Origin: Streptomyces sp. HUAS 15-9
GTDB lineage: Bacteria; Actinomycetota; Actinomycetes; Streptomycetales; Streptomycetaceae
DNA length: 64,000 bases
Reading direction: 5' to 3'
Assembly: GCF_025642155.1 (NCBI RefSeq)
Contig: NZ_CP106798.1
Location: 8,246,001-8,310,000, forward strand
The notes under the pieces are model-generated. The model saw only the letters and a list, made by a program, of their open reading frames with translations. It was not told the origin of the DNA and ran no database searches. The position numbers and the translations under genes are program-made. Positions 224-52,026 of the stretch are shown here, piece after piece (position 1 is the stretch's first letter; each line of letters opens with the position of its first letter).

Positions 224-1348
224 TCACGTCTCCCGCAGCGGCGCGTACGTCTCCGCCGACACCCCGAACGTCCAGGCGACGCCCTCCCGGGCCGTCCGGG
301 TCCTCGGCGGGACCCGCAGCCAGTAGGTGCGCCGGGTTCCGTCCGGCTCCGGCGTGGAGTTGAGGACCTCCACCATCACGACCGCCTCGTCACCGTCCAG
401 GTCGATCCGCCAGAGCGTGCCCGTCTCGTCCTGGTGCACGGGGCGTGCTCCGGAGTCCTCGAGGTAGCGGTCGTAGCCGTAGTACTCCAGCATCACCCGG
501 CGCAGCTCGGCGTTCTCCTCGGCGCGGATCCGCTCCGGCGTCAGGGTGCGAAGCTCCGCGAGGAAGGCGGCCGGAACGGGCATGCCGCGCCAGGCGTACA
601 GGGCGAAACCGTCCGGATAGGCGAGGGCCGGGCCGTGCCCACGGTCCAGGCGGCCCGCTTCGTCGCGGTGCAGGACGGCGGGGCGTTCGCACACGACCGC
701 CACCTTGGCGAACGGCCACCACCAGCCGGCGCTCCGGCACACTTCGCCCAGCCCGTCGAGCGGCGCCCGGTCGGTGGGGAAGGCGGCGAGCCAGGGTGCG
801 TCGTGCTGGCCCAGTACGGCGTCCAGCAGGAGCAGCCGGATCTCCGCCTCTTGGCGGGAGCGGGCCGCCCGGTCCGGCGTTCCGTCCTCCTCGGACGCAC
901 CGGGACCCGCGGCCCCGCCAGGGCCGCCCGGGGCTGTGCCGGTGAGCTCCTCCAGCACGCCTTGGCGGATGCGTTCCACGAGCGCCTGCGTGTTCTCCCA
1001 CAGCACGCCGCCGGTGACCGCCCAGTGCGCCGACCAGCCCACCGCCCCCAACTCCGCGTGGAGTCGGCCGCGTTCGACCGCCCACGGAGCGGTGCGCACC
1101 GCCTCCCGGACACTGGGACCGGTGTCCTCCATGCCGCGTATCAGGGTGATCGCCTCGCGGGGCGAGCCGGCCCACACCACGCGCTCAGGCTCCGCGAGCC
1201 CGGCCCGTCGATAGGCCAGGCGGACACCCCGCTCGGCGCGCTCCCGGTCGGCGGGAGCCGTCTTCGCGGCACACGCGCGCCACAGCGCGGTCTCCTCGAA
1301 CACCCCGGCCCGCGTGCCGAGTTCCGCCGCGCTGTCCACGTTGCTCAT
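224..1348 (-). CDS. DUF6745 domain-containing protein
   Basis: A 374-residue protein of unknown biochemical role. The start at 1348 (MSNVDSAAELG) has a GGAG ribosome site 7 bases upstream. An open frame continues upstream to 2440 but would cross the promoter region and the opposing gene, so that extension is rejected. Recognisable points are a Trp-rich stretch (SAGWWWPFAKVAVVCERPAV) in the middle, DGFALYAWRGMPVP after it, and a C-terminal signature GDEAVVMVEVLNSTPEPDG near residue 325 followed by YWLRVPP, which I associate with DUF6745. There is no signal peptide or membrane segment. It is second in a minus-strand set after the 108-residue protein (gap 32 bases) and divergent from the STM4015-type genes, which suggests a related function. 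Confidence 0.78.
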   Translation of the reverse strand: MSNVDSAAELGTRAGVFEETALWRACAAKTAPADRERAERGVRLAYRRAGLAEPERVVWAGSPREAITLIRGMEDTGPSVREAVRTAPWAVERGRLHAELGAVGWSAHWAVTGGVLWENTQALVERIRQGVLEELTGTAPGGPGGAAGPGASEEDGTPDRAARSRQEAEIRLLLLDAVLGQHDAPWLAAFPTDRAPLDGLGEVCRSAGWWWPFAKVAVVCERPAVLHRDEAGRLDRGHGPALAYPDGFALYAWRGMPVPAAFLAELRTLTPERIRAEENAELRRVMLEYYGYDRYLEDSGARPVHQDETGTLWRIDLDGDEAVVMVEVLNSTPEPDGTRRTYWLRVPPRTRTAREGVAWTFGVSAETYAPLRET

Positions 1349-1380: not shown

Positions 1381-1707
1381 TCAGTCCGCCACGATCCGCA
1401 CGGACCCCGGCACGTACTCCCGCTGCCGGATCACCCGGTACCACCCCTTGGGCAGGGCGATCGCCGCGTGCTCCTCGTGGACCACCCGTCCGTCCTGGGG
1501 CAGATGCAGCAGCATCGGTCCGAACGGCCCCGGCTCCCGCACCAGTTCGCCCGGCCCGACGATCGCGTGCGCATGACCGGTGACCTCGCCGAGCGCCAGC
1601 ACGAGCCGGCCCCGCCCGTCGCGCGGCTCCCTCGGCGCCGCGGCGACATGCGACGGCACCGCTTCCTCGGTCACGGGCACGATCAGCACGTCTCCCTGCC
1701 GGTACAC
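1381..1707 (-). CDS. Small conserved protein of unknown function, first gene of the minus operon
   Basis: A 108-residue protein beginning (M)YRQGDVLIVPV. The GTG at 1707 is preferred because GGAGGGGAGG lies 6 bases upstream of it; the earlier ATG at 1734 has no ribosome site and falls in the presumed leader. The central part reads GRLVLALGEVTGHAHAI, and the C-terminus reads LPKGWYRVIRQREYVPGSVR. It is predicted soluble, with a beta-rich look and a His-containing GHAHAI motif. I do not recognise a named family. Its position directly in front of the DUF6745-type gene and next to the divergent LRR operon suggests the two minus genes act with, or are co-regulated with, the STM4011-4015-type set. 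Confidence 0.72.
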   Translation of the reverse strand: MYRQGDVLIVPVTEEAVPSHVAAAPREPRDGRGRLVLALGEVTGHAHAIVGPGELVREPGPFGPMLLHLPQDGRVVHEEHAAIALPKGWYRVIRQREYVPGSVRIVAD

Positions 1708-1771
1708 GGCATGCCTCCCCTCCGGCCGGGGCACCGCGCACCGGCCTCATGCCACAGACAGTAGAAGCCGC

Positions 1772-1818
1772 CACTGACAACGGGCCGTACCAAGGCCCCC
1801 AGCACCCCGTTGTCAGTG
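1772..1818. promoter_or_regulatory. Large inverted repeat in the divergent promoter region
   Basis: The 173-base gap between the two divergent operons contains a perfect 13-base inverted repeat, CACTGACAACGGG at 1772-1784 and CCCGTTGTCAGTG at 1806-1818, with a 21-base spacer. The symmetry goes further: AGAAG at 1763-1767 is matched by CTTCT at 1819-1823, and TACCAAG at 1789-1795 is matched by CTTGGTA at 1822-1828. This suits an operator for a dimeric regulator controlling both directions, or a cruciform/hairpin. No regulator gene is adjacent. Confidence 0.6.
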
Positions 1819-1880
1819 CTTCTTGGTAGAACTGCGGCATCACGGAACGGACGACCCACTTTCGCCACAGGAGCAGCCGC

Positions 1881-2840
1881 ATGACCATCGGTGACCACCT
1901 CGACGCGCTGTACCGGCTGCCTGCCCACACCTTCCCCGGCCCGGACGCCCGCACGGACGACCTGCCCGAAGCGGAGTCCGTCGCCTGGCGCATCACCAGC
2001 GACGTGTACGACGCGGACGAGGACTGGACGGAGGCCTTCGCCCGCTTCTGCGCCGCCGTCGACACCACCCGCGTACGGGCCCTGATAGTCGGTGCCTGGC
2101 AGGAGGCGTACGACACCGACCCGGACGACGTGATCGAGGCGCTGCTGGCCGCGCGGGACCGATTCCCCGCCCTGCGGGCGCTGTTCCTGGGCGACATGGT
2201 CATGGAGGAGTGCGAGATCTCCTGGATCAACCAGACCGATGTCACCCCGCTCCTCGCCGGCTTCCCGGACCTGGAGGAGTTCGGTGTGCGCGGCGGATCA
2301 GGGCTGAGCTTCCCCGCCCTGCGCCACACCGGGCTGCGCGGGCTCACCATGGAGAGCGGCGGCCTGCCCGCCGAGGTCGTCCGGGGCGTGGGCGCCAGCG
2401 ACCTGCCCGCGCTGGAGCAGCTCGACCTGTGGCTGGGCACCCCCGACTACGGCGGTGACAGCGAGGCCGCCGATCTGGAGCCGATCCTGTCCGGCGCCCG
2501 GCTGCCGCGCCTGCGTCATCTGGCGCTGCGCAACAGCGAGATGCAGGACGCCGTCGCCGCCGCGGTCGCCGCCGCACCGGTCGTCGCCCGGCTGGAGGTG
2601 CTGGACCTGTCCATGGGTGTCCTCTCGGACGAGGGCGGCGCCGCCCTGCTCGCCGGTCAGCCGCTCACCCACCTCAAGCGGCTCGACCTCCACCATCACT
2701 ACCTCAGCGAGCCGCTTGTGGAGCGGATACGTCAGACCCTGGAGCTCGCCGGCGTCGAAGTGGACCTCGACCGCGACGACGCCGACGAGGACCAGGACGA
2801 CGACGGCACGGTGTGGCGGTACGTGGCCGTGGGCGAGTGA
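1881..2840 (+). CDS. STM4015-type leucine-rich repeat protein, copy 1
   Basis: A 319-residue soluble protein. The ATG at 1881 has AGGAG 7 bases upstream. After an N-terminal segment (HLDALYRLPAHTF) come leucine-rich repeats such as LEQLDLWLGTPDYGG, LRHLALRNSEMQDAVAAAVA and LEVLDLSMGVLSDEGGAALL, of the ribonuclease-inhibitor-like type with a strand and helix in each repeat. The C-terminus is very acidic (DRDDADEDQDDDG) and ends in WRYVAVGE. The family is named after Salmonella STM4015 and has no assigned activity; LRRs usually make protein contacts. It heads a tight plus-strand operon with a second paralogue and the STM4014, 4013, 4012 and 4011 homologues, so it is probably the partner- or substrate-binding component. 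Confidence 0.85.
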   Translation: MTIGDHLDALYRLPAHTFPGPDARTDDLPEAESVAWRITSDVYDADEDWTEAFARFCAAVDTTRVRALIVGAWQEAYDTDPDDVIEALLAARDRFPALRALFLGDMVMEECEISWINQTDVTPLLAGFPDLEEFGVRGGSGLSFPALRHTGLRGLTMESGGLPAEVVRGVGASDLPALEQLDLWLGTPDYGGDSEAADLEPILSGARLPRLRHLALRNSEMQDAVAAAVAAAPVVARLEVLDLSMGVLSDEGGAALLAGQPLTHLKRLDLHHHYLSEPLVERIRQTLELAGVEVDLDRDDADEDQDDDGTVWRYVAVGE

Positions 2841-2851
2841 GCCCGAGCCCC

Positions 2852-3802
2852 ATGAACCACTACCCCTCGTACCTCAAGCAGTTCCACGGTCTGCCCGTAC
2901 ACCTCTTCGACGCGGACGGTGACGGCCGTGGCCGGCCCCGTCCCGAACCCGCCTCGGTCGCATGGAAGCTGAGCGCCGACCGTCAGCACGCCTTCGAACC
3001 GCTGTGGCGGCGATTCCTCGACGAGGTCCACGCCGAGGAGGTCACCGCGCTCGTCATCGGCGCCTGGTGGCAGTCGTGGGACGAACACGGCATCGACCCC
3101 GTCCTCGACCTGCTCACGGCCGAGGCACATCGGTTCCCCCGGCTGCGCGCCCTGTTCCTCGCGGACGTCGAGTCCGAGGAGACGGAGATCTCCTGGATCC
3201 GTCAGGGGCACCTTTCCCGCGTCCTGCGCGCCTGGCCCGAACTGGAGGAGATCGGGGTGCGCGGGGCGGAGGGGCTGGTGATCGAGCCCGTGCGCCACGA
3301 GCGGCTGCGCACCCTGCGCATCGAGTCCGGGGGGATGCCCGCGCAGCCCGTCCGCGCCCTGGCCGCCTGCACGTTCCCGGCCCTGCGCCACCTGGAATTG
3401 TGGCTGGGCACCCCCGAATTCGGCGGCGAATGCGAGGCCGAGGACGTCACCGCGCTCCTCACCGCGCTGGGCCACTGCCCCGAACTGCGCCACCTGGGGG
3501 TGAAGAACAGCGACATCCAGGACGCCGTGGCCGCCGCGGTGGCCCAGGCACCGGTCGTCGCGGGCCTCACCTCGGTCGACCTCAGCATGGGCACCCTCGG
3601 GGACGAGGGCGCGGGCGCACTCCTGTCGGGCCGGCCCCTGACCCATCTGCGCGCTCTCGACCTGCGGTACAACTTCCTGAGCGACGAACTGGCCCAGCGC
3701 CTGCGCGAGACGCTGGAGCCGCACGGAGTCGACCTCGCCCTCACTCCGGCGCCCCGAAGCTCGTACAACCCCGAGGCACGCTATGTCGCCGTCGGCGAAT
3801 GA
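2852..3802 (+). CDS. STM4015-type leucine-rich repeat protein, copy 2
   Basis: A 316-residue paralogue of the preceding gene, 11 bases downstream. The ATG at 2852 (MNHYPSYLKQFHGLPVHLF) aligns with the start of copy 1; an open frame upstream to 2813 lies inside copy 1 and is not needed. It keeps the same repeats (LRHLELWLGTPEFGGE, LRHLGVKNSDIQDAVAAAVA, SVDLSMGTLGDEGAGALL), showing tandem duplication. It lacks the acidic tail of copy 1 but keeps the same terminal residues, RYVAVGE. Conservation of that tail in both copies despite a divergent preceding linker suggests a functional C-terminal tag. Its end overlaps the ATP-grasp gene by 20 bases, implying translational coupling. Confidence 0.85.
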   Translation: MNHYPSYLKQFHGLPVHLFDADGDGRGRPRPEPASVAWKLSADRQHAFEPLWRRFLDEVHAEEVTALVIGAWWQSWDEHGIDPVLDLLTAEAHRFPRLRALFLADVESEETEISWIRQGHLSRVLRAWPELEEIGVRGAEGLVIEPVRHERLRTLRIESGGMPAQPVRALAACTFPALRHLELWLGTPEFGGECEAEDVTALLTALGHCPELRHLGVKNSDIQDAVAAAVAQAPVVAGLTSVDLSMGTLGDEGAGALLSGRPLTHLRALDLRYNFLSDELAQRLRETLEPHGVDLALTPAPRSSYNPEARYVAVGE

Positions 3803-4988
3803 CCCGGGACCGCGCTTCGCGGTCGTGGGCAACCCCGAGAACCGCCGCGTCACCCTCTTCGGGGACGCGGTGCGCACGGCCGGACTCGCCGCCCCGCGCA
3901 TCGTCGCCTGGACGGACGTGCTGCGCGCGGGCGGAGCCGAGTCCAGGGCCGAGTTCGGCGTCGAGTTCGGGGCCGAGGAGATCGTCCGGATCGACTCACC
4001 CGGTGAGAACGCCGAGGTCGACCGGCTGCTGCGCGGTGCCCAGGACCCCACCCGGGTCGAAGGTTCGGCACGCTGGTACACCGGGTTCATGGCCGCGCTG
4101 CGGGGGCTGCGCGGCGGCATCCGGCTCGACGACCCGACCGACCTTCCCGTGCTCTTCGACAAGCGGCGCTGCCATGCCGTGCTCGACGCGGCCGGCGTGC
4201 CGGTGCCCGACTCACCCACCTCGGGACCCAAAGCCGCACCCGTTCGTGGCTGGGACGACGTACGGGCGCTGATGCGGGAACACCGCATGCCCCGCCTGTT
4301 CGTCAAACCCGCGCACGGCTCGTCCGCTTCGGGCGTGCTCGCCGTGGAGTCGGGCGGCGGCGGCCGGATCAGGGCGACCACATCCGTGGAACGCGCGGCG
4401 GACGGCCGCCTCTACAACTCCCTCAAGGTACGCCGCTACGAACGCGAGTCGGACATCGCGGCCGTCGTCGACGCGCTCGCCCCGGACGGGCTGCATCTGG
4501 AGCGCTGGCTGCCGAAGGCCTCCCAGGACGGGCGCGCGGCCGACTTGCGCGTCGTCGTCGTGGCCGGCCGCGCCACCCACGCGGTCGTCCGCACCAGCCG
4601 CTCACCCCTGACCAATCTCCACCTCGGCGGCCGCCGGGGCGATCTCGACGCGGCCCGGCAGGCCGTCGAGGCGGCGGGCGCGCACTGGACCGATCTGCTC
4701 GACGTGTGCGAGCGGGCCGCGGCCTGCTTCCCGCGCACGCTCTGCGTCGGCGTCGATCTGCTGCCCGCCGTGGGCTGGCGCCGAGCCGCGGTGGGCGAGG
4801 TGAACGCGTTCGGCGACCTGCTGCCGCGCCTCACCGGCCTGCCCGGCAGCGGCGCCGAGGGCCTAGACACCTACGCCACCCAGGTGGCCGCCGCCCTGCG
4901 CCGCTTCGCTCCGGACCGGCCGACGGCCTCTTCGCACCACCAGTACAGAGAAGGAAACCCGCATGCCCTCGCCCGCCCCGACGCCTGA
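3783..4988 (+). CDS. STM4014-type ATP-grasp protein
   Basis: A 401-residue protein starting at 3783 with GAGG 6 bases upstream, inside the end of the LRR gene. ATP-grasp features are visible: the ATP-binding strand and glycine loop PRLFVKPAHGSSASGV near residues 169-185, LRVVVVAGRATHAVVR near 254-270, and a metal-binding E-x-N in VGEVNAFGDLLP near 338. ATP-grasp enzymes form acyl-phosphates and ligate carboxylates to amines or thiols, including peptide ligases; the substrate here is unknown. In Salmonella the homologue (STM4014) lies in the same gene set. The 3-prime end overlaps the next gene by 26 bases. I infer a peptide or protein ligase-like step in a modification system. Confidence 0.85.
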   Translation: MSPSANDPGPRFAVVGNPENRRVTLFGDAVRTAGLAAPRIVAWTDVLRAGGAESRAEFGVEFGAEEIVRIDSPGENAEVDRLLRGAQDPTRVEGSARWYTGFMAALRGLRGGIRLDDPTDLPVLFDKRRCHAVLDAAGVPVPDSPTSGPKAAPVRGWDDVRALMREHRMPRLFVKPAHGSSASGVLAVESGGGGRIRATTSVERAADGRLYNSLKVRRYERESDIAAVVDALAPDGLHLERWLPKASQDGRAADLRVVVVAGRATHAVVRTSRSPLTNLHLGGRRGDLDAARQAVEAAGAHWTDLLDVCERAAACFPRTLCVGVDLLPAVGWRRAAVGEVNAFGDLLPRLTGLPGSGAEGLDTYATQVAAALRRFAPDRPTASSHHQYREGNPHALARPDA

Positions 4989-5898
4989 GCCGCTCCCGCC
5001 CCGGAGCGCCCCGACCACGCCTCAAGCGCCGGGTGAGCCATATGAGTCGTATGTTCCGCATGCGCCGGACATGAACGAGATCGTCGGCAGCCACGACCTC
5101 CTCCTCGTCACCCTGGACACCCTCCGCTACGACGTGGCCGCCGAACTGGCCGCGGCGGGCCGCCTGCCGAACCTGGCCCGTCACCTCCCCGGCGGCCGCT
5201 GGGAGAAGCGGCACGCCCCGGGCAGCTTCACCTACGCCTCCCACCAGGCGATCTTCGCGGGCTTCCTGCCCACCCCGGCCGCCCCCGGCCCGCATCCGCG
5301 CCTGTTCGCCGCGAGCTTCGCGGGGAGCGAGACCACCGCTCGGGGCACGTTCGTCTACGACACCCCGGATCTCGTCTCCGGCCTCGCCGAGGTGGGCTAT
5401 CACACCGTGTGCATCGGAGGCGTGGGTTTCTTCAACAAGCTGGGCCCGCTGGGCTCGGTGCTGCCCGGCCTGTTCCACGAGTCCCACTGGGCACCGGAGT
5501 TCGGCGTCACCGACCCCGACTCCTTCGGGAACCAAGTGGCCCGCGCCGAACGCGTCGTACGGGAACTGCCCACAGAAAAACGACTGTTCCTCTTCGTCAA
5601 CGTGTCCGCCCTGCACCAGCCGAACTGGTTCCACCTGCCCGGCGCGACCCGCGAGGCCGGCGACACCCGCGCCACGCACGCCGCCGCCCTGGAATACGTG
5701 GACCGACACATCGGACGGCTCTTCGCCGCCGCGAGCAGCAGACGCCGCTGCTTCGCCGTCGTCTGTTCCGACCACGGCACCGCCTACGGCGACGACGGAT
5801 ACACCGGCCACCGCCTCGGCCACGAGTCCGTCTGGACCGTGCCCTACGCCCAGTTCTTCCTGGACCCCGCATCCCGCCCGACGGAGGCCGCCCGATGA
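4963..5898 (+). CDS. STM4013/SEN3800-type hydrolase (alkaline phosphatase/sulfatase fold)
   Basis: A 311-residue protein. The ATG at 4963 has AGAAGGA about 7 bases upstream, which favours it over the internal ATG at 5071. It carries motifs of the alkaline phosphatase superfamily: LLVTLDTLRYD near residues 47-58, with the metal-binding Asp and a Thr at the nucleophile position, and a C-terminal metal site CSDHGTAYGDDGYTGHRLGH near 266-285. The N-terminal 36 residues are Pro-rich and contain GEPYESYVPHAPDMNE, recalling the SPYQSYVYAYPHKT stretch at the start of the next protein. It is probably a cytosolic phospho- or sulfo-hydrolase; the substrate is unknown. Its stop overlaps the next start (ATGA). 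Confidence 0.85.
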   Translation: MPSPAPTPEPLPPRSAPTTPQAPGEPYESYVPHAPDMNEIVGSHDLLLVTLDTLRYDVAAELAAAGRLPNLARHLPGGRWEKRHAPGSFTYASHQAIFAGFLPTPAAPGPHPRLFAASFAGSETTARGTFVYDTPDLVSGLAEVGYHTVCIGGVGFFNKLGPLGSVLPGLFHESHWAPEFGVTDPDSFGNQVARAERVVRELPTEKRLFLFVNVSALHQPNWFHLPGATREAGDTRATHAAALEYVDRHIGRLFAAASSRRRCFAVVCSDHGTAYGDDGYTGHRLGHESVWTVPYAQFFLDPASRPTEAAR

Positions 5899-7237
5899 CC
5901 ACCGCCGAGCTGACGACGGCAACCAGCCCCTACCAGAGCTATGTCTACGCCTACCCCCACAAGACCGCCTACCGCCGACTCCACGACCGCCCCCTGCTGA
6001 ACACCCTCTGGGCGGCCGAGCCCAAGGACACCCTCTCCCTCTACCTCCACATCCCCTTCTGCGAAGTCCGCTGCGGTTTCTGCAACCTCTTCACCCGCAT
6101 TGGCGCCACCGACGGCCTGACCGGCGCCTACCTGGACGCGCTGGAGCGCCAGGCGGGGGCCGTACGGGAAGCGCTCGGGGACACGGACGAGGTCCGGTTC
6201 GCCACGGCGGCCTTCGGCGGCGGCACCCCGACCTTCCTCACCGCCCCGAGCTCGAGCGGCTGTGTGACATCGCCGAACACCGCATGGGCGCCGACCTGCG
6301 CGCCGTCCCGCTGTCGGTCGAGGCCTCCCCGGCCACCGCCACGGCCGACCGGCTCACGGTCCTCGCCGAGCGCGGCACCACCCGGCTGAGCCTGGGCGTA
6401 CAGAGCTTCGTCGACTCCGAGGCCCGTGCCGCCGTACGCCCGCAGCGCCGCGCCGACGTGGAGTCGGCCCTCGCCCGCATCCGTGACGCCGGCATCCCCG
6501 TCCTCAACATCGACCTCATCTACGGCATCGACGGCCAGACGGAACGGACCTGGCTGCATTCCCTCGACGCGGCCCTCGCCTGGCGACCCGAGGAGCTCTA
6601 CCTCTACCCCCTCTACGTCCGCCCCCTGACCGGCCTGGGCCGACGCGGTAGCGGCCCCGACCCCGCCTGGGACGAACAGCGGCTGCGCCTGTATCGCGCA
6701 GGCCACGACCACCTCCTCGCGCACGGCTACAACCAGCAGTCCATGCGCATGTTCCGCCGCACCGACGCCCCGCCCCAGGGCGCCGACGACCACGCCTGCC
6801 AGACCGACGGGATGATCGGCCTGGGCTGCGGTGCCCGCTCCTACACGGCCCGTCTGCACTATTCCTTCGACTACGCCGTGGACATGCACCAGATACGCGC
6901 GATCATCGACGACTACGTCTCCCGCCCGGCCGCCGACTTGGCCCACGCCGAGTACGGCCGCCCCATCGACACCGACGAGGCCCGCCGCCGTCACCTCCTG
7001 CAGTCCCTGCTCCAGGCCGAGGGCCTGTGCCCCGACGACTACCGCGCCCGCTTCGGGGCCGCCCCCGCCGACCACTTCGGCCCCGAACTCACCCGCTTCG
7101 CCGACCGCGGCTGGCTGACCGACGACGGCACCACGCTCAGGCTCACCCCCGAGGGACTCGCCCACTCCGACGCGATCGGCCCCGACCTGTTCTCCCCGGC
7201 GGTCCGGGCCGCCATGGCCGCCTACGAGAGGAAGTGA
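5895..7237 (+). pseudogene. STM4012-type radical SAM protein, interrupted by a -1 frameshift as printed
   Basis: This HemW/coproporphyrinogen-oxidase-like radical SAM protein would be about 447 residues if intact. The first frame from ATG 5895 carries the CX3CX2C cluster motif CEVRCGFC at residues 56-63 and FGGGTPTFLTAP. At the C-run 6244-6247 the frame is lost (reading SSSG) and the family sequence resumes in the -1 frame (ELERLCDIAEHRMGADLRAV) through to 7237. Adding one C at this run restores a continuous gene. The downstream part keeps RLSLGVQSFVD, NIDLIYGIDGQT and GLGCGARSY. The rest of the gene shows no decay, so a sequencing or assembly error, or a recent mutation, is likely. No X-XXY-YYZ slip site is seen. 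It follows STM4013 by an ATGA overlap. Confidence 0.85.
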
Positions 7238-7247
7238 CCGGCCCGCC

Positions 7248-8135
7248 ATGGACCTCACCCTCCTCTACCGGGGCCCCCTCGCCTCCTGCGACTACGACTG
7301 CCCGTACTGTCCCTTCGCCAAGCGTCGCGACACCGGCGCCCAACTGCGCGTGGACCGCGCCTCCTTGGAGCGCTTCGCGGCCTGGGCCCGGCGGCAGACC
7401 GGCGACCGCCTGTCCCTCCTGTTCACCCCGTGGGGAGAGGGCCTGGTCCGCTCCTGGTACCGGCGCACCCTCGCCGACCTGTCCCACCTGCCGCACATCC
7501 GGCGCGTGGCGATCCAGACCAACCTCAGCTGCCGTACCGACTGGCTCGCCGAGGCCGACCCCGACACGCTGGCCCTGTGGTGCACCTACCACCCCGGACA
7601 GACCCCGTACGACCGCTTCCTCACCAAATGCCACGAACTGACCGCGTACGGCATCCGCTTCAGCGTCGGCATCGTCGGCCTGGTTGACCATCTCGACGCG
7701 GCCCGGCGCCTGCGCGCCGACCTGCCCGAGCACGTCTACCTGTGGGTCAACGCCGCCGAGGGACACACCTACACCGACGCGGAGGCCGCCCGGTGGACGG
7801 GCCTGGACCCACTCTTCCCGTACAGCCGGCACCCGCACACCAGCGCGGGACTGCCCTGCCGCACCGGCGACTCCGTGATCTCCGTCGACGGCGAAGGCAC
7901 CGTCCGCCGCTGCCACTTCGTACCCACCCCGCTGGGCAACCTCTACGACGGCTCCTACCGCGCCGCCCTGCGCCCCCGCCCCTGCCCACTCGCCACCTGC
8001 GACTGCCACATCGGCTATGTGCACCTGGAGACGCTGCCCCTGTACGACGTCTTCGCGGGCGGCGTCCTGGAACGCGTCCCGGCCATGGCCCCAGCGACCC
8101 CGATCCTCCACCCGTCACACGTGACGGGGAGTTGA
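7248..8135 (+). CDS. STM4011-type radical SAM protein
   Basis: A 295-residue radical SAM enzyme, last in the operon, 10 bases after STM4012. The CX3CX2C motif CDYDCPYC sits at residues 14-21, very close to the N-terminus. The C-terminal part has more cysteines in SPASM-like positions: GLPCRTGDSVISVDGEGTVR, RCHFVPTPLGNLYDG and PCPLATCDCHIGY. These could bind an auxiliary cluster, as in radical SAM enzymes that modify peptides; that reading is an inference. WVNAAEGHTYTDAEAARWTG lies between. There is no transmembrane segment. Two radical SAM enzymes beside an ATP-grasp protein and LRR proteins make a protein- or peptide-modifying pathway the most natural hypothesis. Confidence 0.85.
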   Translation: MDLTLLYRGPLASCDYDCPYCPFAKRRDTGAQLRVDRASLERFAAWARRQTGDRLSLLFTPWGEGLVRSWYRRTLADLSHLPHIRRVAIQTNLSCRTDWLAEADPDTLALWCTYHPGQTPYDRFLTKCHELTAYGIRFSVGIVGLVDHLDAARRLRADLPEHVYLWVNAAEGHTYTDAEAARWTGLDPLFPYSRHPHTSAGLPCRTGDSVISVDGEGTVRRCHFVPTPLGNLYDGSYRAALRPRPCPLATCDCHIGYVHLETLPLYDVFAGGVLERVPAMAPATPILHPSHVTGS

Positions 8136-8212
8136 CGGGACGCTCGCTCCGCCGGGCCACCCGGTGGGAGAGGAAGATCACGCCTGGTGGACGCGGTCTT
8201 GGCCATGCTCCC

Positions 8213-8330
8213 GACTCGCGGTACCGTCGGTGCGATATCGACGACGGCGAGACGGAAGCCGGTGGGAATCCGGCACGGTCGCGCCACTGTATGCGAGAGG
8301 CCCCTGGGGCGTTTCGTGAGTCAGACCCGT
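8213..8330 (+). ncRNA. Cobalamin (B12) riboswitch
   Basis: The conserved core of a cobalamin riboswitch is visible: GGAAGCCGGTGGGAATCCGG at 8254-8273, then CACGGTCGCGCCACTGT ending at 8290, the B12 box. A closing stem can be drawn from GACTCGCG (8213-8220) to CGTGAGTC (8315-8322), with one G-U pair. It lies 60-170 bases upstream of cbtB. No U-rich terminator follows, so translational control of the AGAGGAGG site before cbtB is plausible. By family knowledge, B12 binding should shut off cobalt uptake. Confidence 0.9.
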
Positions 8331-8387
8331 GGCCGTCGTCCAGTGCACCACCGAGATGGGACGCGAACTCCCAGAGGAGGCCCTGCC

Positions 8388-8630: not shown

Positions 8631-9383
8631 ATGAACTCCACAACCGTAAGAAACCTCCTCGTGCGGGGCATGCTCGCCGGCCTGGCCGCCGGCGTGCTCG
8701 CCCTCGTCGTCGCCTACTTCCTCGGTGAGCCGAGTGTCGGCAACGCGATCAGCTTCGAGGAGGCGCACTCCCACGAGCACGAGATGGAGGTCGTCTCCCG
8801 CTCCCTGCAGTCCACCGCCGGACTCGCCACCGGCGTCCTGGTCTATGGGGTCGCCTTCGGCGGCATCGCGGCGCTCGCGTTCTGCTTCGCGCTCGGCCGC
8901 GTCGGCCGGTTCAGCCCCCGGGCGACCGCGCTGCTGCTGTCCGGCTGCGCACTGCTGGCCGTGTACGTCGTGCCGTTCCTCAAGTACCCGGCCAATCCGC
9001 CCTCCGTGGGTGATCCCGACACCATCGGCAAGCGGACGACTCTGTACTTCCTGATGATGGCGCTCAGCGTGCTCCTCGCGATCGCCGCCACCATCCTGGG
9101 CAAGCGGCTCGCGCCCTCGCTGGGCACCTGGTACGCGACCGTCACGGCGGTGGCGGCCTTCGCCGTCGTCATCGGGCTCGCGTTCGCGTTCCTGCCCGTC
9201 ATCAACGAGGTGCCGAAGGACTTCCCGGCCACCCTGCTGTGGCGGTTCCGGCTCTCCGCGCTGGCCATCCAGACGGTGCTGTGGGGCGGATTCGGCCTCG
9301 TCTTCGGCGAGTTGGCCGAGCGGATGCTCAATCCCAAGCCCGCGGCAGCCTCGTCCGGGCGGGCGGTTCCAGCCGCGCACTGA
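8631..9383 (+). CDS. cbtA: CbtA, cobalt transporter membrane subunit
   Basis: A 250-residue integral membrane protein with about five hydrophobic segments. The first (LLVRGMLAGLAAGVLALVVA) is followed by a periplasm-side loop rich in metal ligands, EEAHSHEHEMEVVSRSL near residues 40-58, typical of CbtA. Later segments include ALLLSGCALLAVYVVPFLKY and an invariant-looking KYPANPP. It forms a B12-riboswitch-controlled operon with cbtB. The role is cobalt uptake across the cytoplasmic membrane, based on family and regulation. A hairpin terminator lies 28 bases downstream. Confidence 0.92.
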   Translation: MNSTTVRNLLVRGMLAGLAAGVLALVVAYFLGEPSVGNAISFEEAHSHEHEMEVVSRSLQSTAGLATGVLVYGVAFGGIAALAFCFALGRVGRFSPRATALLLSGCALLAVYVVPFLKYPANPPSVGDPDTIGKRTTLYFLMMALSVLLAIAATILGKRLAPSLGTWYATVTAVAAFAVVIGLAFAFLPVINEVPKDFPATLLWRFRLSALAIQTVLWGGFGLVFGELAERMLNPKPAAASSGRAVPAAH

Positions 9384-49753: not shown

Positions 49754-51844
49754 TCAGCCGAGGTGGTCGGCGACGAGGACGGCGAACTCGTCGGGTGTGG
49801 CCAGGCGGATGCCGAGGTCTTCGGCCTTGGCCCGCTTGGACCCGGCGTTCTCGCCGGCGACCACCAGACTGGTCTTCTTGGAGACGCTGGAGGACGAACG
49901 GCCGCCCGCCCGCTCGATGAGCTCATTCATCTGGTTGCGGCTCAACCGCTCCAGCGGCCCGGTCATCGCGCCGGTGACCACGACTGTCATCCCGGCGAGC
50001 GGACCGGTGGCGGGGGCGTCGGACGTGGCACCGCCGGTCTCCGTGTCGGCGTCGGCGCTGGGCGGGGCAGTGGCGCCGGGTTCGGTCATGTTCACCCCGG
50101 CCGCGGCGAGTTTGTCGATCAGCGGGGCGAGTTCGGCCAGTTCCGCGACGATGGACGGCGCCTTCTCGGTGCCGATGCCCTCGACCTGTTGCAGCGCCTC
50201 GGCGTCGGCGGTGCGGATGTTGTCCATGGTGGCGAAGTACCGGGCGATGCGTCGCGACATGGACCGGCCCGTGCCGCGGACTCCGAGTGCGCACAGCACC
50301 CGCGACAGCGGCCGCGTCCTGGCCGTGGCCAGGGCGGCCAGCAGATTGTCGGTGCTGGTCTCGCCCATGCGGTCCAGCGCGAGGAGCTGGTCGCGGGTCA
50401 GCGTGAACAGGTCGGCGAGATCGCCGACCAGACCGGTCTCGACGAGCTGCACGATGCGGGTGGTGCCAAGGCCCTCGATGTCGAGCTGGTCGCGGCCCAC
50501 GGCGTAGGAGAGGGAGGCGACGAGGTGGCAGTTACGGCCCTGCTCGCAGCGCCAGCGTTCCTGGCCGGTGTCGATCCCCGATCCACAGCGCGGACACGCC
50601 TCGGGGAACGCGATCGGCTGCTCGGCGCCGGTGCGCAGATGGGCGACAGGGGCCTCGACACGGGGGATCACGTCGCCGGCGCGGTGGACCATGACATGGT
50701 CGCCCAGGCGCAGATCACGGCGCGTGATGTCGGCCGGGTTGTGGAGCGTCGCGTAGGTGATGGTGGAGCCGTCGATCTCCACCGGTTCCAGGACGGCGCG
50801 CGGCGCGATGATGCCGGTGCGGCCCACGTTCCACTCCACCTCGAGCAGCCGGGTGATCTTCTCGACGGCGGGCAGCTTGTAGGCGATCGCCCAGCGCGGG
50901 GCCCGCGAACCGTTTCCGGCGGCCCGCTGATCGGCGGCCGGATCGGCCTTGATGACGATGCCGTCGATACCGAAGGGCAGTTGGGCGCGCAGGGCGGCGA
51001 TCTCCTGCACGCGGGCCAGCACCTCGTCGGTGTTGGTGGCCGTGGTGCCGGGTACCGCGGTGTCGGCGGTGGTGTGCACACCGAGCGTGGCGGCCAGCGT
51101 CATGAGCTCACTGTGGGCGAGGTCGCCCAGCCGTGTGGCCAGGGCGGCGTCGGTGTCGGGCAGCGGCAGCAGGCCGTAGCCGAAGAACGTCATCGCCACC
51201 GGGTAGGCGCGGTCCTTGGCACGCAACGTGCCCGCCGCCGCGTTGCGGGCGTTGGCGAACGGCTGCCCGCCGTGCGCGGTGCGCGCCGTGTTGGCCTCCT
51301 CGAACTGCGCGCCGGTCATGAGGACTTCACCGCGCACCTCCACGCTGACCGGTTCGGACAGGGTGGCGGGCAGCCCCTCGATGGTGCCTATCGCGTGCGA
51401 GACGTCTTCGCCGGCCGTCCCGTCGCCACGGGTGATCAGCCGGGTCAGCCGGCCCTGGGCGTAGCGGGCCGCGACGGCGAGTCCGTCGAGCTTCGGCTCG
51501 ACGCTGAATCGTTCCGCCTCATGGCCGATCCGGCGCGCGAGTGAGGCGGCCCAGGCCGTGAACTGCTCGGGCGAGAACACGTTGTCCAGGCTCAGCATCG
51601 CCACCGTGTGGAGCACATCGCCCTCGGCCGCACCGCCGGCGACCTTCCCGGTCGGCGAGTCGGGCAGCACCTGGTCGGGATGCCCGGCCTCCCACGCGGC
51701 GATGCCCCGCACGAGCGTGTCGTAGGCGTCGTCGTCCAAGGGCGAGGTGCCGCCCGCGTAGTAGGCGGCAGCGGCCTTCACCGCGTCCTCGACCGCCTGC
51801 GCGTAGGCGGCGGCATCAACGATCTGCGCAATCGGTGTCGTCAT
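49754..51844 (-). CDS. ligA: NAD-dependent DNA ligase
   Basis: 696 residues from ATG 51844 (AGGA 8 bases upstream); ATG 51853 is an alternative. Domain order is complete: Ia segment ([19 protein letters not shown]), adenylation domain with the nucleophile Lys in [15 protein letters not shown] near residue 119, RGEVLM and IDGIVIK motifs, OB fold, four-Cys zinc finger ([15 protein letters not shown]), HhH region [19 protein letters not shown], and the C-terminal BRCT ([20 protein letters not shown]). It seals nicks using NAD+. It may be a second copy beside a housekeeping ligA elsewhere, as the setting is a stress-gene region; only a genome search can tell. Confidence 0.9.
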
Positions 51845-52026
51845 GCAGGTCATCCTGCCTGGCACCACTGACAATGCCCCCGGGCACTCTCCGGCTCGGA
51901 GCTCATGCACCAGGTCGAGGGGAAGCCCGTCGGCCACCCATATGCCATGCCCCGGCCCTCTCCTCATGGCGCGCCGGGACAGAGTGGCGCAGCGTGGAGG
52001 GTAGGACCGCAGAAGAGGTGAGACAC

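Follow-up and report, generated by a model that had tools for sequence, protein, structure and literature searches.

The 64,000-nucleotide stretch of the Streptomyces sp. HUAS 15-9 genome analysed here (hereafter the window; positions are counted from its first letter) carries, on the plus strand, an operon of the STM4011–STM4015 gene set. The operon encodes two leucine-rich-repeat (LRR) proteins of the STM4015 family, an ATP-grasp ligase (STM4014), a hydrolase of the alkaline-phosphatase superfamily (STM4013) and two radical S-adenosylmethionine (SAM) enzymes (STM4012 and STM4011). Gene identities were assigned with NCBIfam models, each scored against its curated cut-off. The identities, order and strand given in an initial annotation of this DNA were found to be correct, each gene being matched by its own model. 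The operon is composed as follows.

1881..2840, plus strand: STM4015-family LRR protein, copy 1 (319 aa, ending ...WRYVAVGE); NF038076, 416.6 bits against a cut-off of 275
2817..2837, plus strand: tail codons RYVAVGE of STM4015 copy 1, conserved in an alignment of 55 sequences
2852..3802, plus strand: STM4015-family LRR protein, copy 2 (ending ...ARYVAVGE); NF038076, 338.3 bits against a cut-off of 275
3779..3799, plus strand: tail codons RYVAVGE of STM4015 copy 2, located by the tail pattern scan of the genome
3783..4988, plus strand: STM4014-family ATP-grasp ligase; NF038074, 455.7 bits against a cut-off of 175
about 5071..5898, plus strand: STM4013-family hydrolase, alkaline-phosphatase superfamily; NF038075, 427.1 bits against a cut-off of 250
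5895..7237, plus strand: STM4012-family HemN-like radical SAM gene, frame disrupted near 6250; NF006067, matched in two frames
7248..8135, plus strand: STM4011-family radical SAM protein with five extra conserved Cys; NF038073, 413 bits against a cut-off of 200

All STM genes exceeded the curated cut-offs, except for the shorter piece of the split STM4012. The tight overlap of the genes that had been described was confirmed for STM4013/STM4012 (4 nt) and for the second STM4015 gene and STM4014 (20 nt), but not for STM4012/STM4011, which do not overlap; the remaining junctions depend on the choice of start codon (GTG at 2813 or ATG at 2852 for STM4015 copy 2; the STM4013 open reading frame (ORF) opens at 4963). 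The initial annotation did not include the STM4015 tail, the frameshift in STM4012, the DUF6745 gene pair or the damage-type promoters described below.

A conserved tail was found at the C-terminus of the LRR proteins. Both window copies share the last seven residues, RYVAVGE, and the terminal residue is Glu in 114 of the 120 STM4015 ORFs with a readable end (113/117 after dropping low-scoring rows). The usual end in most groups is R-[YF]-x-[AS]-V-[SGAT]-E, preceded by a variable acidic linker. In an alignment of 55 sequences chosen from the better-scoring rows, E319 was present in 55/55 and R313 and V317 each in 50/55, with a mean of 7.2 acidic and 1.2 basic residues in the 20 positions ahead of the last seven; no Cys was invariant across these 55 sequences. 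In every other family of the set, Glu falls outside the five commonest last residues. When a degenerate tail pattern followed by a stop codon was scanned over the whole 9.6-Mb genome (3 contigs), only two matches were obtained, both of them STM4015 genes, and the reversed control gave 0. In one locus (L055), a single enzyme set is accompanied by about five copies of STM4015, every one of which has a tail of its own. The conservation of Glu, the genome-unique pattern and the paralogues sharing one enzyme set led to the tail being regarded as the working end of STM4015, and it is considered likely that it constitutes a functional site, by modification or by docking.

STM4015 copy 1 was modelled by AlphaFold2 (AF2) with a mean predicted local distance difference test score (pLDDT) of 96.0. 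The best fold match of the model was 2RA8, a Bacteroides fragilis homologue (Foldseek E = 1.6e-18), which was also matched by the STM4015 profile in the PDB (E = 6e-76); no paper on 2RA8 was found in open-licence full text. From 106 STM4015 ORFs, 36 were picked for their N-terminal extension, and 12 of these 36 have a WGR domain, which is a separate hint of a link to DNA damage.

The enzymes of the set were characterized by their invariant residues and by profile searches against solved structures. In STM4014, the ATP-grasp residues K127, K175, E240, R270, D325, E339 and N341 are among those kept in at least 76 of 77 sequences. Its profile placed LysX (1uc8, E = 3e-5) first in the PDB, with RimK (E = 5e-4) and cyanophycin synthetase also listed and D-Ala ligases close behind; the E-values are weak, and at this level of sequence similarity STM4014 appears to resemble the LysX/RimK ligases. 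One record names a Salmonella homologue a RimK-like ATP-grasp protein. STM4013 contains D52, T90, D247, D270, H271 and H283 in 88/88 sequences each, and its profile matched first the nucleotide pyrophosphatases/phosphodiesterases (NPP, E = 5.5e-7), with sulfatases close behind. Thr90 occupies the position that we take to be that of the nucleophile, and a role of STM4013 as a formylglycine sulfatase, with STM4011 as its maturase, was rejected because Thr90, instead of Cys or Ser, is found in all 88 sequences.

Both radical SAM families announced in the initial annotation were recognized by their models, with the reservation that STM4012 is split over two frames in this genome. STM4011 presents the radical SAM motif CX3CX2C plus five more Cys (eight in all: C14, C18, C21, C204, C222, C246, C251 and C253, each in 81/81 sequences); since the five further Cys are invariant, the SPASM-like label given earlier to one of the two enzymes holds. 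The C-terminal part of STM4011 matches SkfB (E = 2.8e-4), as in the SPASM maturases of ribosomally synthesized and post-translationally modified peptides (RiPPs), but the candidate substrate here is an LRR protein of about 320 aa and not a short precursor peptide, and no protease was recognized among the widely shared neighbours (ORFs of at least 90 aa). In STM4012, the CX3CX2C triad is kept in 82/82 sequences, and within CX3CGFCN the Cys and Asn are found in 82/82 and the G and F in 81/82. STM4012 matches the HemW and HutW models below cut-off, and also HemN_C, but differs from HemN, HemW and HutW in having its own family (NF006067) and the CX3CGFCN motif; the motif of HemN contains a fourth Cys.

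The conservation of the set was evaluated in 80 loci picked from a genome collection with an STM4013 alignment, by match to a Deinococcus sequence. These were the best 80 of at least 579 relative-encoding stretches (at least 593 candidate stretches), and, because of this ranking, the sample leans towards Deinococcus-like loci. Sorted by record titles, the loci belong to Actinomycetota (19), Myxococcota (16), Beta/Gammaproteobacteria (14), Cyanobacteria and kin (10), Chloroflexota (7), Planctomycetota (5), Alphaproteobacteria (4) and others (5), about ten phyla altogether, and many of the fetched stretches end at contig ends. All five STM families were found together in 64/80 loci and at least four in 69/80; ten loci were without STM4014 and STM4015 in the stretch, and seven of these have an STM4014 above cut-off elsewhere in the genome. 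Three of the models (STM4013, STM4014 and STM4015) were searched in 296 Actinomycetota genomes and exceeded their cut-offs in the identical six, the window genome among them. Co-occurrence of the families, on which the idea of a joint system had been staked, was thus borne out, and the five-gene set is a real module. The same gene order was found on annotated plasmid records of Methylobacterium, Deinococcus, Paenibacillus, Salmonella and S. fungicidicus, and a degraded set on a Bacteroides plasmid record. In Bacteroides finegoldii (L037:8580-9020), only remnants of STM4013 and STM4012 are left, while STM4015, STM4014 and an STM4011–HAD fusion are kept. No phage-carried core set was found with the STM4013 alignment; one IMG/VR contig (L233), found with the STM4015 alignment, carries the whole STM4015–4011 set with a Bacteroides-type tail and is either a prophage or misassigned bacterial DNA. 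The locus titled Comamonas sp. KCTC 72670 (L100) is of myxobacterial type, its HAD gene being 81% identical to that of Myxococcus vastator, and the genome is possibly mislabelled.

The operon is proposed, from these sequence data, to encode a system that modifies a protein C-terminus or uses it as a carrier, with STM4014 ligating at the terminal Glu; the probability of this reading was estimated at roughly 0.45. In such a system, STM4015 would be the LRR scaffold, with the acidic linker and the R-[YF]-x-A-V-[SGA]-Glu-COOH end as its working end. STM4014 would activate the C-terminal Glu and join an amino compound to it, and STM4012, STM4011 and STM4013, the last as a two-metal phosphoesterase with a Thr nucleophile, would process the attached group. 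Phosphate or nucleotide chemistry may be involved, as hinted by STM4013 and by the HAD or adenylyl-sulfate (APS)-kinase genes present at some loci. The product would stay on the LRR protein during radical and hydrolytic processing, and several LRR paralogues with the same tail could be served by one enzyme set. Such a model would account for the near-invariant Glu, the acidic linker, the type of ligase and the number of LRR paralogues, and would explain why no obvious release enzyme is found. The suggestion in the initial annotation that the LRR proteins are substrates or carriers has thereby gained a candidate site and a LysX-like ligase, but the tail could also be a docking element.

The closest parallel is offered by the LysW/LysX (ArgW/ArgX) pair. 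According to the part of PMC10433800 that treats it, LysX attaches its substrate, through the amino group, to the Glu at the C-terminus of LysW, as shown by mass spectrometry for ArgW; there too, an ATP-grasp ligase is paired with a carrier in which an acidic stretch leads up to the C-terminal Glu. The carrier of the STM set is, in contrast, an LRR protein of about 320 aa and not the 54-aa Zn-binding LysW, and its partners are radical SAM enzymes and a phosphoesterase. By analogy, and with a chance slightly short of even, the set could work like a carrier system of this type without belonging to it. A second parallel is RimK, which acts at the C-terminus of S6. It is described as the glutamate ligase for S6, adding glutamates to the protein, in a passage of PMC10092738; it likewise is an ATP-grasp ligase acting on a protein, but the substrate here is not S6 and radical SAM steps are present. 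No described function for the STM4011–STM4015 set was found in the open-licence PMC literature, and a subscription paper could exist; the STM family names and DUF6745 likewise gave no paper there, and the STM locus tags appear in two papers, one tag a single time in each. A paper retrieved with a domain combination (PMC4275035) treats, in the portion concerned, another domain.

Upstream of the operon, a divergent unit of two genes is encoded on the minus strand, and a promoter-like site was found for each of the two units.

1810..1832, plus strand: PafBC/RecA-NDp-like promoter of the STM4015–4011 operon, 1 mismatch; TTGTCAGTGCTTCTTGGTAGAAC
1758..1780, minus strand: PafBC/RecA-NDp-like promoter of the divergent unit, 0 mismatches; TTGTCAGTGGCGGCTTCTACTGT
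1381..1707, minus strand: small protein of about 108 aa, defined with a 25-sequence alignment
224..1348, minus strand: DUF6745 protein; PF20530, 386.8 bits; start inferred from relatives, the mechanical ORF being over-extended at its start

The sites were scored against TTGTCRGTG-N8-TANNNT, which we take to be the PafBC/RecA-NDp motif. The window genome contains 37 exact copies of it and 0 of the reversed pattern. An exact motif was found in 57 of the 61 genomes searched (window genome counted), with 11 to 44 copies in each of 36 other genomes of the genus (control 0 or 1). A genome of the same order (G045) has 78 exact motifs, many with a near-identical spacer, as if by repeat spread or regulon expansion. 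Thirty motif sites were fetched, an ORF was called behind 27 of them, and 25 of these 27 were scanned for family. Matches were obtained to ung (uracil-DNA glycosylase), RarA, RuvC, a Hel308-type helicase, UvrA, UvrB, O6-methylguanine methyltransferase (ogt), DnaX, PcrA and a UvrD-like helicase, a composition that fits a DNA-damage regulon. The motif was also found ahead of genes that are not known to act in repair (a sigma factor, a transporter and an AraC-type regulator) and of several ORFs with no match. Two tandem WYL-domain genes at 1.78 Mb are presumed to be pafB-pafC. Both promoters of the locus resemble the PafBC regulon in motif, spacing and orientation, in a genome where the tandem WYL pair is present, but the STM operon is not named as a target in the portions of the PafBC literature cited here. 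In S. coelicolor, a RecA-NDp promoter has been reported ahead of recA and of the UV-inducible SCO6735 (in a section of PMC5087735). The frequency of the exact motif in Streptomyces genomes contrasts with a passage of PMC9380542, in which an initial motif search in S. venezuelae did not show conservation of the PafBC-type motif.

In 18 of 20 actinomycete copies of the small gene, the 200 bases ahead of it contain a site with at most 2 mismatches (L087 and L104 being without one), against 0/20 for the reversed pattern and about 0.5% for shuffles; seven of the copies are from Actinomadura, so that the copies are not independent. It is predicted from the promoter sequences that the small-protein/DUF6745 unit is very probably under damage control in Streptomyces, and that the STM operon probably is as well. 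DNA damage would then induce the operon together with the divergent unit via PafBC. Elsewhere in the window, an NAD-dependent DNA ligase gene (49754-51874, minus strand) is preceded by a PafBC-like site that has one mismatch and lies seven bases from the ATG. Helicase genes that look RecQ-type by eye lie near the STM set in L055, L057, L066, L076, L105, L089 and L048, maybe as Actinomadura synteny. For Salmonella, PMC3844500 tabulates a sigma-54 site in minus orientation for STM4013.S.

The small protein presents invariant H45, H47, H77 and H80 and an RQREY-type signature (25-sequence alignment), and was modelled by AF2 as all-beta (mean pLDDT 85.9). No confident match to a solved fold was obtained (best Foldseek E = 1.1; best profile E = 0.057), and the cupin fold guessed from its His pattern was left unsupported by the same searches. 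The small protein and DUF6745 were both found near the STM set in 24/80 loci, and either one without the other in 0/80. DUF6745 adjoins the set in several phyla, and the pair shares an operon with the set in Methylobacterium, whereas it is convergent to the set in three Deinococcus records and divergent from it in S. fungicidicus. DUF6745 was present in 9/296 genomes, four with the STM set and five without it, the small protein standing beside DUF6745 in three of these five, so that the pair extends beyond the set. Among viral contigs, where the best 80 of 509 relatives of the small protein were taken (L153-L232), a DUF6745-like gene was found at most 600 bases from the small-protein gene, in either order, in 53/80 loci; Microcystis phages carry both.

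In three Deinococcus records, a palindrome resembling the radiation/desiccation response motif (RDRM) was found 42, 26 and 26 bases ahead of the small gene; these sites have, respectively, 4, 4 and 5 mismatches to the 17-bp consensus and 5, 7 and 5 of 7 arm pairs. Each 18.8-kb Deinococcus locus contains just one site with at most 5 mismatches, the one before the small gene, and 94 other GC-rich bacterial loci (1.21 Mb), taken as a control, gave 0 sites with at most 4 mismatches and 8 with at most 5. From the PafBC-type sites in actinomycetes and the RDRM-like sites in Deinococcus, it is predicted that the small-protein/DUF6745 unit is linked to damage in two phyla and that, in Streptomyces, the STM operon itself is so as well. 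A passage of PMC5552922 describes the motif as a 17-bp palindrome, and a site of this kind lies just before the small gene in 3/3 loci, as would be expected in the Deinococcus regulon (RDRM, DdrO/IrrE), but with the 4–5 mismatches given above. The regulon table of that paper contains a different five-gene operon, ddrTUVWX, the radiation-induced SWIM/VWA operon of Deinococcus deserti, and an identity of the STM set with ddrTUVWX was rejected on this ground (PMC5552922, in the part concerned). In the window genome (L029), an exact PafBC-type motif precedes a SWIM zinc-finger gene, and a VWA gene lies near the STM set in a Deinococcus locus (L234:1174-3192); SWIM/VWA is a possible second damage module common to both phyla.

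Other neighbours of the set are variable. Clusters were formed from ORFs of at least 90 aa within 4 kb, spanning at least three groups, and were named by eye except for the scanned ones. A HAD hydrolase was found by BLASTP clustering directly upstream of STM4013 in 13/80 loci (L041, L044, L069, L080, L090, L097, L100, L101, L103, L106, L112, L115 and L119). Three of the 13 were scanned: all were above the general HAD-IA model TIGR01549, the nearest specific models, both below cut-off, being a HAD family of unknown role and the YjjG nucleotidase. A Cof-type HAD follows STM4011, or is fused to it, in Salmonella and Bacteroides. An adenylyl-sulfate kinase above the TIGR00455 cut-off lies beside the set or within about 2 kb of it in 7/80 loci (L067, L072, L077, L079, L085, L096 and L098), in two cases fused to ATP sulfurylase. 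The HAD and APS-kinase neighbours point to phosphoryl or sulfuryl chemistry. Downstream of the operon in the window, an Rfam cobalamin riboswitch (8202-8351, plus strand) is followed by a CbtA cobalt transporter gene (8631-9383, plus strand). A cobalamin link to the STM operon was rejected, the riboswitch being placed past the operon and ahead of the CbtA gene and, therefore, part of the next unit.

Several observations weigh against a ligation at the terminal Glu of STM4015 or against its control by damage. The tails of Salmonella, Bacteroides and Paenibacillus, as well as those of some cyanobacterial paralogues, keep the Glu and deviate from the consensus before it. The EDWGE motif and the Zn-binding Cys of LysW are absent from STM4015, whose tail is R-Y-x-A-V-[SG]-E, and the GSWGR motif of LysX is absent, by eye, from the STM4014 translation, which places the set outside the LysW/LysX family; moreover, biotin carboxylase matches the STM4014 profile as strongly as LysX (E = 3.1e-5). 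Three loci (L045, L046 and L108) have a lone STM4013 relative with no STM4014 found in the genome, and L111 has STM4015, STM4013, STM4012 and STM4011 with no STM4014 within the fetched stretch. On the regulatory side, a site with at most 2 mismatches was found in only 11/27 actinomycete stretches upstream of STM4015 (reversed control 0/27, shuffles about 0.5%), mostly in Streptomyces and with the variant -10 TAGAAC. The STM4015 side in Deinococcus was without an RDRM-like site (best 8–9 mismatches of 17), and no convincing SOS pattern was found upstream of the operons in five alphaproteobacterial, one Paenibacillus and nine beta/gammaproteobacterial loci. Furthermore, AF2 gave high confidence to the tail of STM4015 (mean pLDDT of 84 for residues 301–310 and 90 for residues 311–319), which suggests that the tail is probably ordered and packed on the LRR instead of being a free arm; a floppy tail was left unsupported by these values. 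Finally, STM4012 is broken in this very genome: its N-terminal part (NF006067 profile 1-105) and the remainder (118-427) lie in different frames, the two pieces scoring 453.6 and 159.5 bits against a cut-off of 380, and near 6250 the window DNA has one base fewer than S. fungicidicus. The break reflects either an error of sequencing or a true lesion. If real, the operon might be decaying and without function in this strain, whatever its role elsewhere; this was judged unlikely, given that the remaining genes are open over their full length and that, where the sequence is GC-rich, the assembly may be wrong by a single base.

The ordered tail also fits an account, possible but doubtful, in which it is a docking or structural element that closes the LRR groove or recruits the enzymes. 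The enzymes would then produce a small molecule or act on another target, for which the LRR protein would serve as scaffold or sensor. The strongly conserved W73, W115, S114, R137, H272 and H273 sit on the LRR body, and in several loci of Myxococcota and Planctomycetota the set is divided into two blocks, STM4013-4012-4011 and STM4014-4015, which face opposite ways or lie apart; both observations would be consistent with docking. A docking peptide would, however, not need a fixed C-terminal Glu, and this residue is last in 114/120 ORFs despite an overall identity to the window copy of 32–56% outside Streptomyces. The damage-type promoters and WGR fusions might instead indicate that the set acts on damaged nucleotides or nucleic acid, STM4013, HAD and the radical SAM enzymes repairing or recycling a nucleotide and the LRR/WGR protein bringing them to damaged DNA. 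The NPP matches of STM4013 and the HAD genes nearest to YjjG, with the reservations given above, agree with such a role, but no nucleic-acid-binding domain was found by Pfam and NCBIfam in the five core families of the window, and the Glu tail and the ligase would be left unexplained; this account was considered improbable. Even less probable is a RiPP-like or conflict system, in which LRR proteins with a modified C-terminal warhead would be released or exported or would serve in anti-phage defence. The multiple paralogues with one tail, the patchy distribution (6/296 genomes) and the frequency of the small-protein/DUF6745 pair in phage contigs speak for it, whereas no protease was recognized among the neighbour clusters spanning at least three groups, the sole transporter-like cluster was an ABC ATPase, mostly actinomycete, and PADLOC gave just one partial match (STM4012 to PDC-M51A).

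The carrier or modification reading can be extended to a system induced by damage, with radical SAM enzymes building a group on the C-terminal Glu of the LRR proteins. The loaded LRR proteins, WGR-fused in some phyla, would be effectors or damage-site adaptors, and their phage-shared small-protein/DUF6745 partner would be damage-controlled in two phyla; as a whole, this picture is doubtful and on the unlikely side, although the Deinococcus sites make it slightly more probable. The seven-residue tail with its near-invariant Glu narrows the question of modification to a single peptide, and the damage-type promoters suggest the stress under which the set should be expressed, so that a long-unexplained gene set, kept together over about ten phyla, becomes testable. 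If the proposal is true, LRR proteins would add a new class to the proteins that are modified at their C-terminus, and the bacterial response to DNA damage would come to include radical SAM chemistry.

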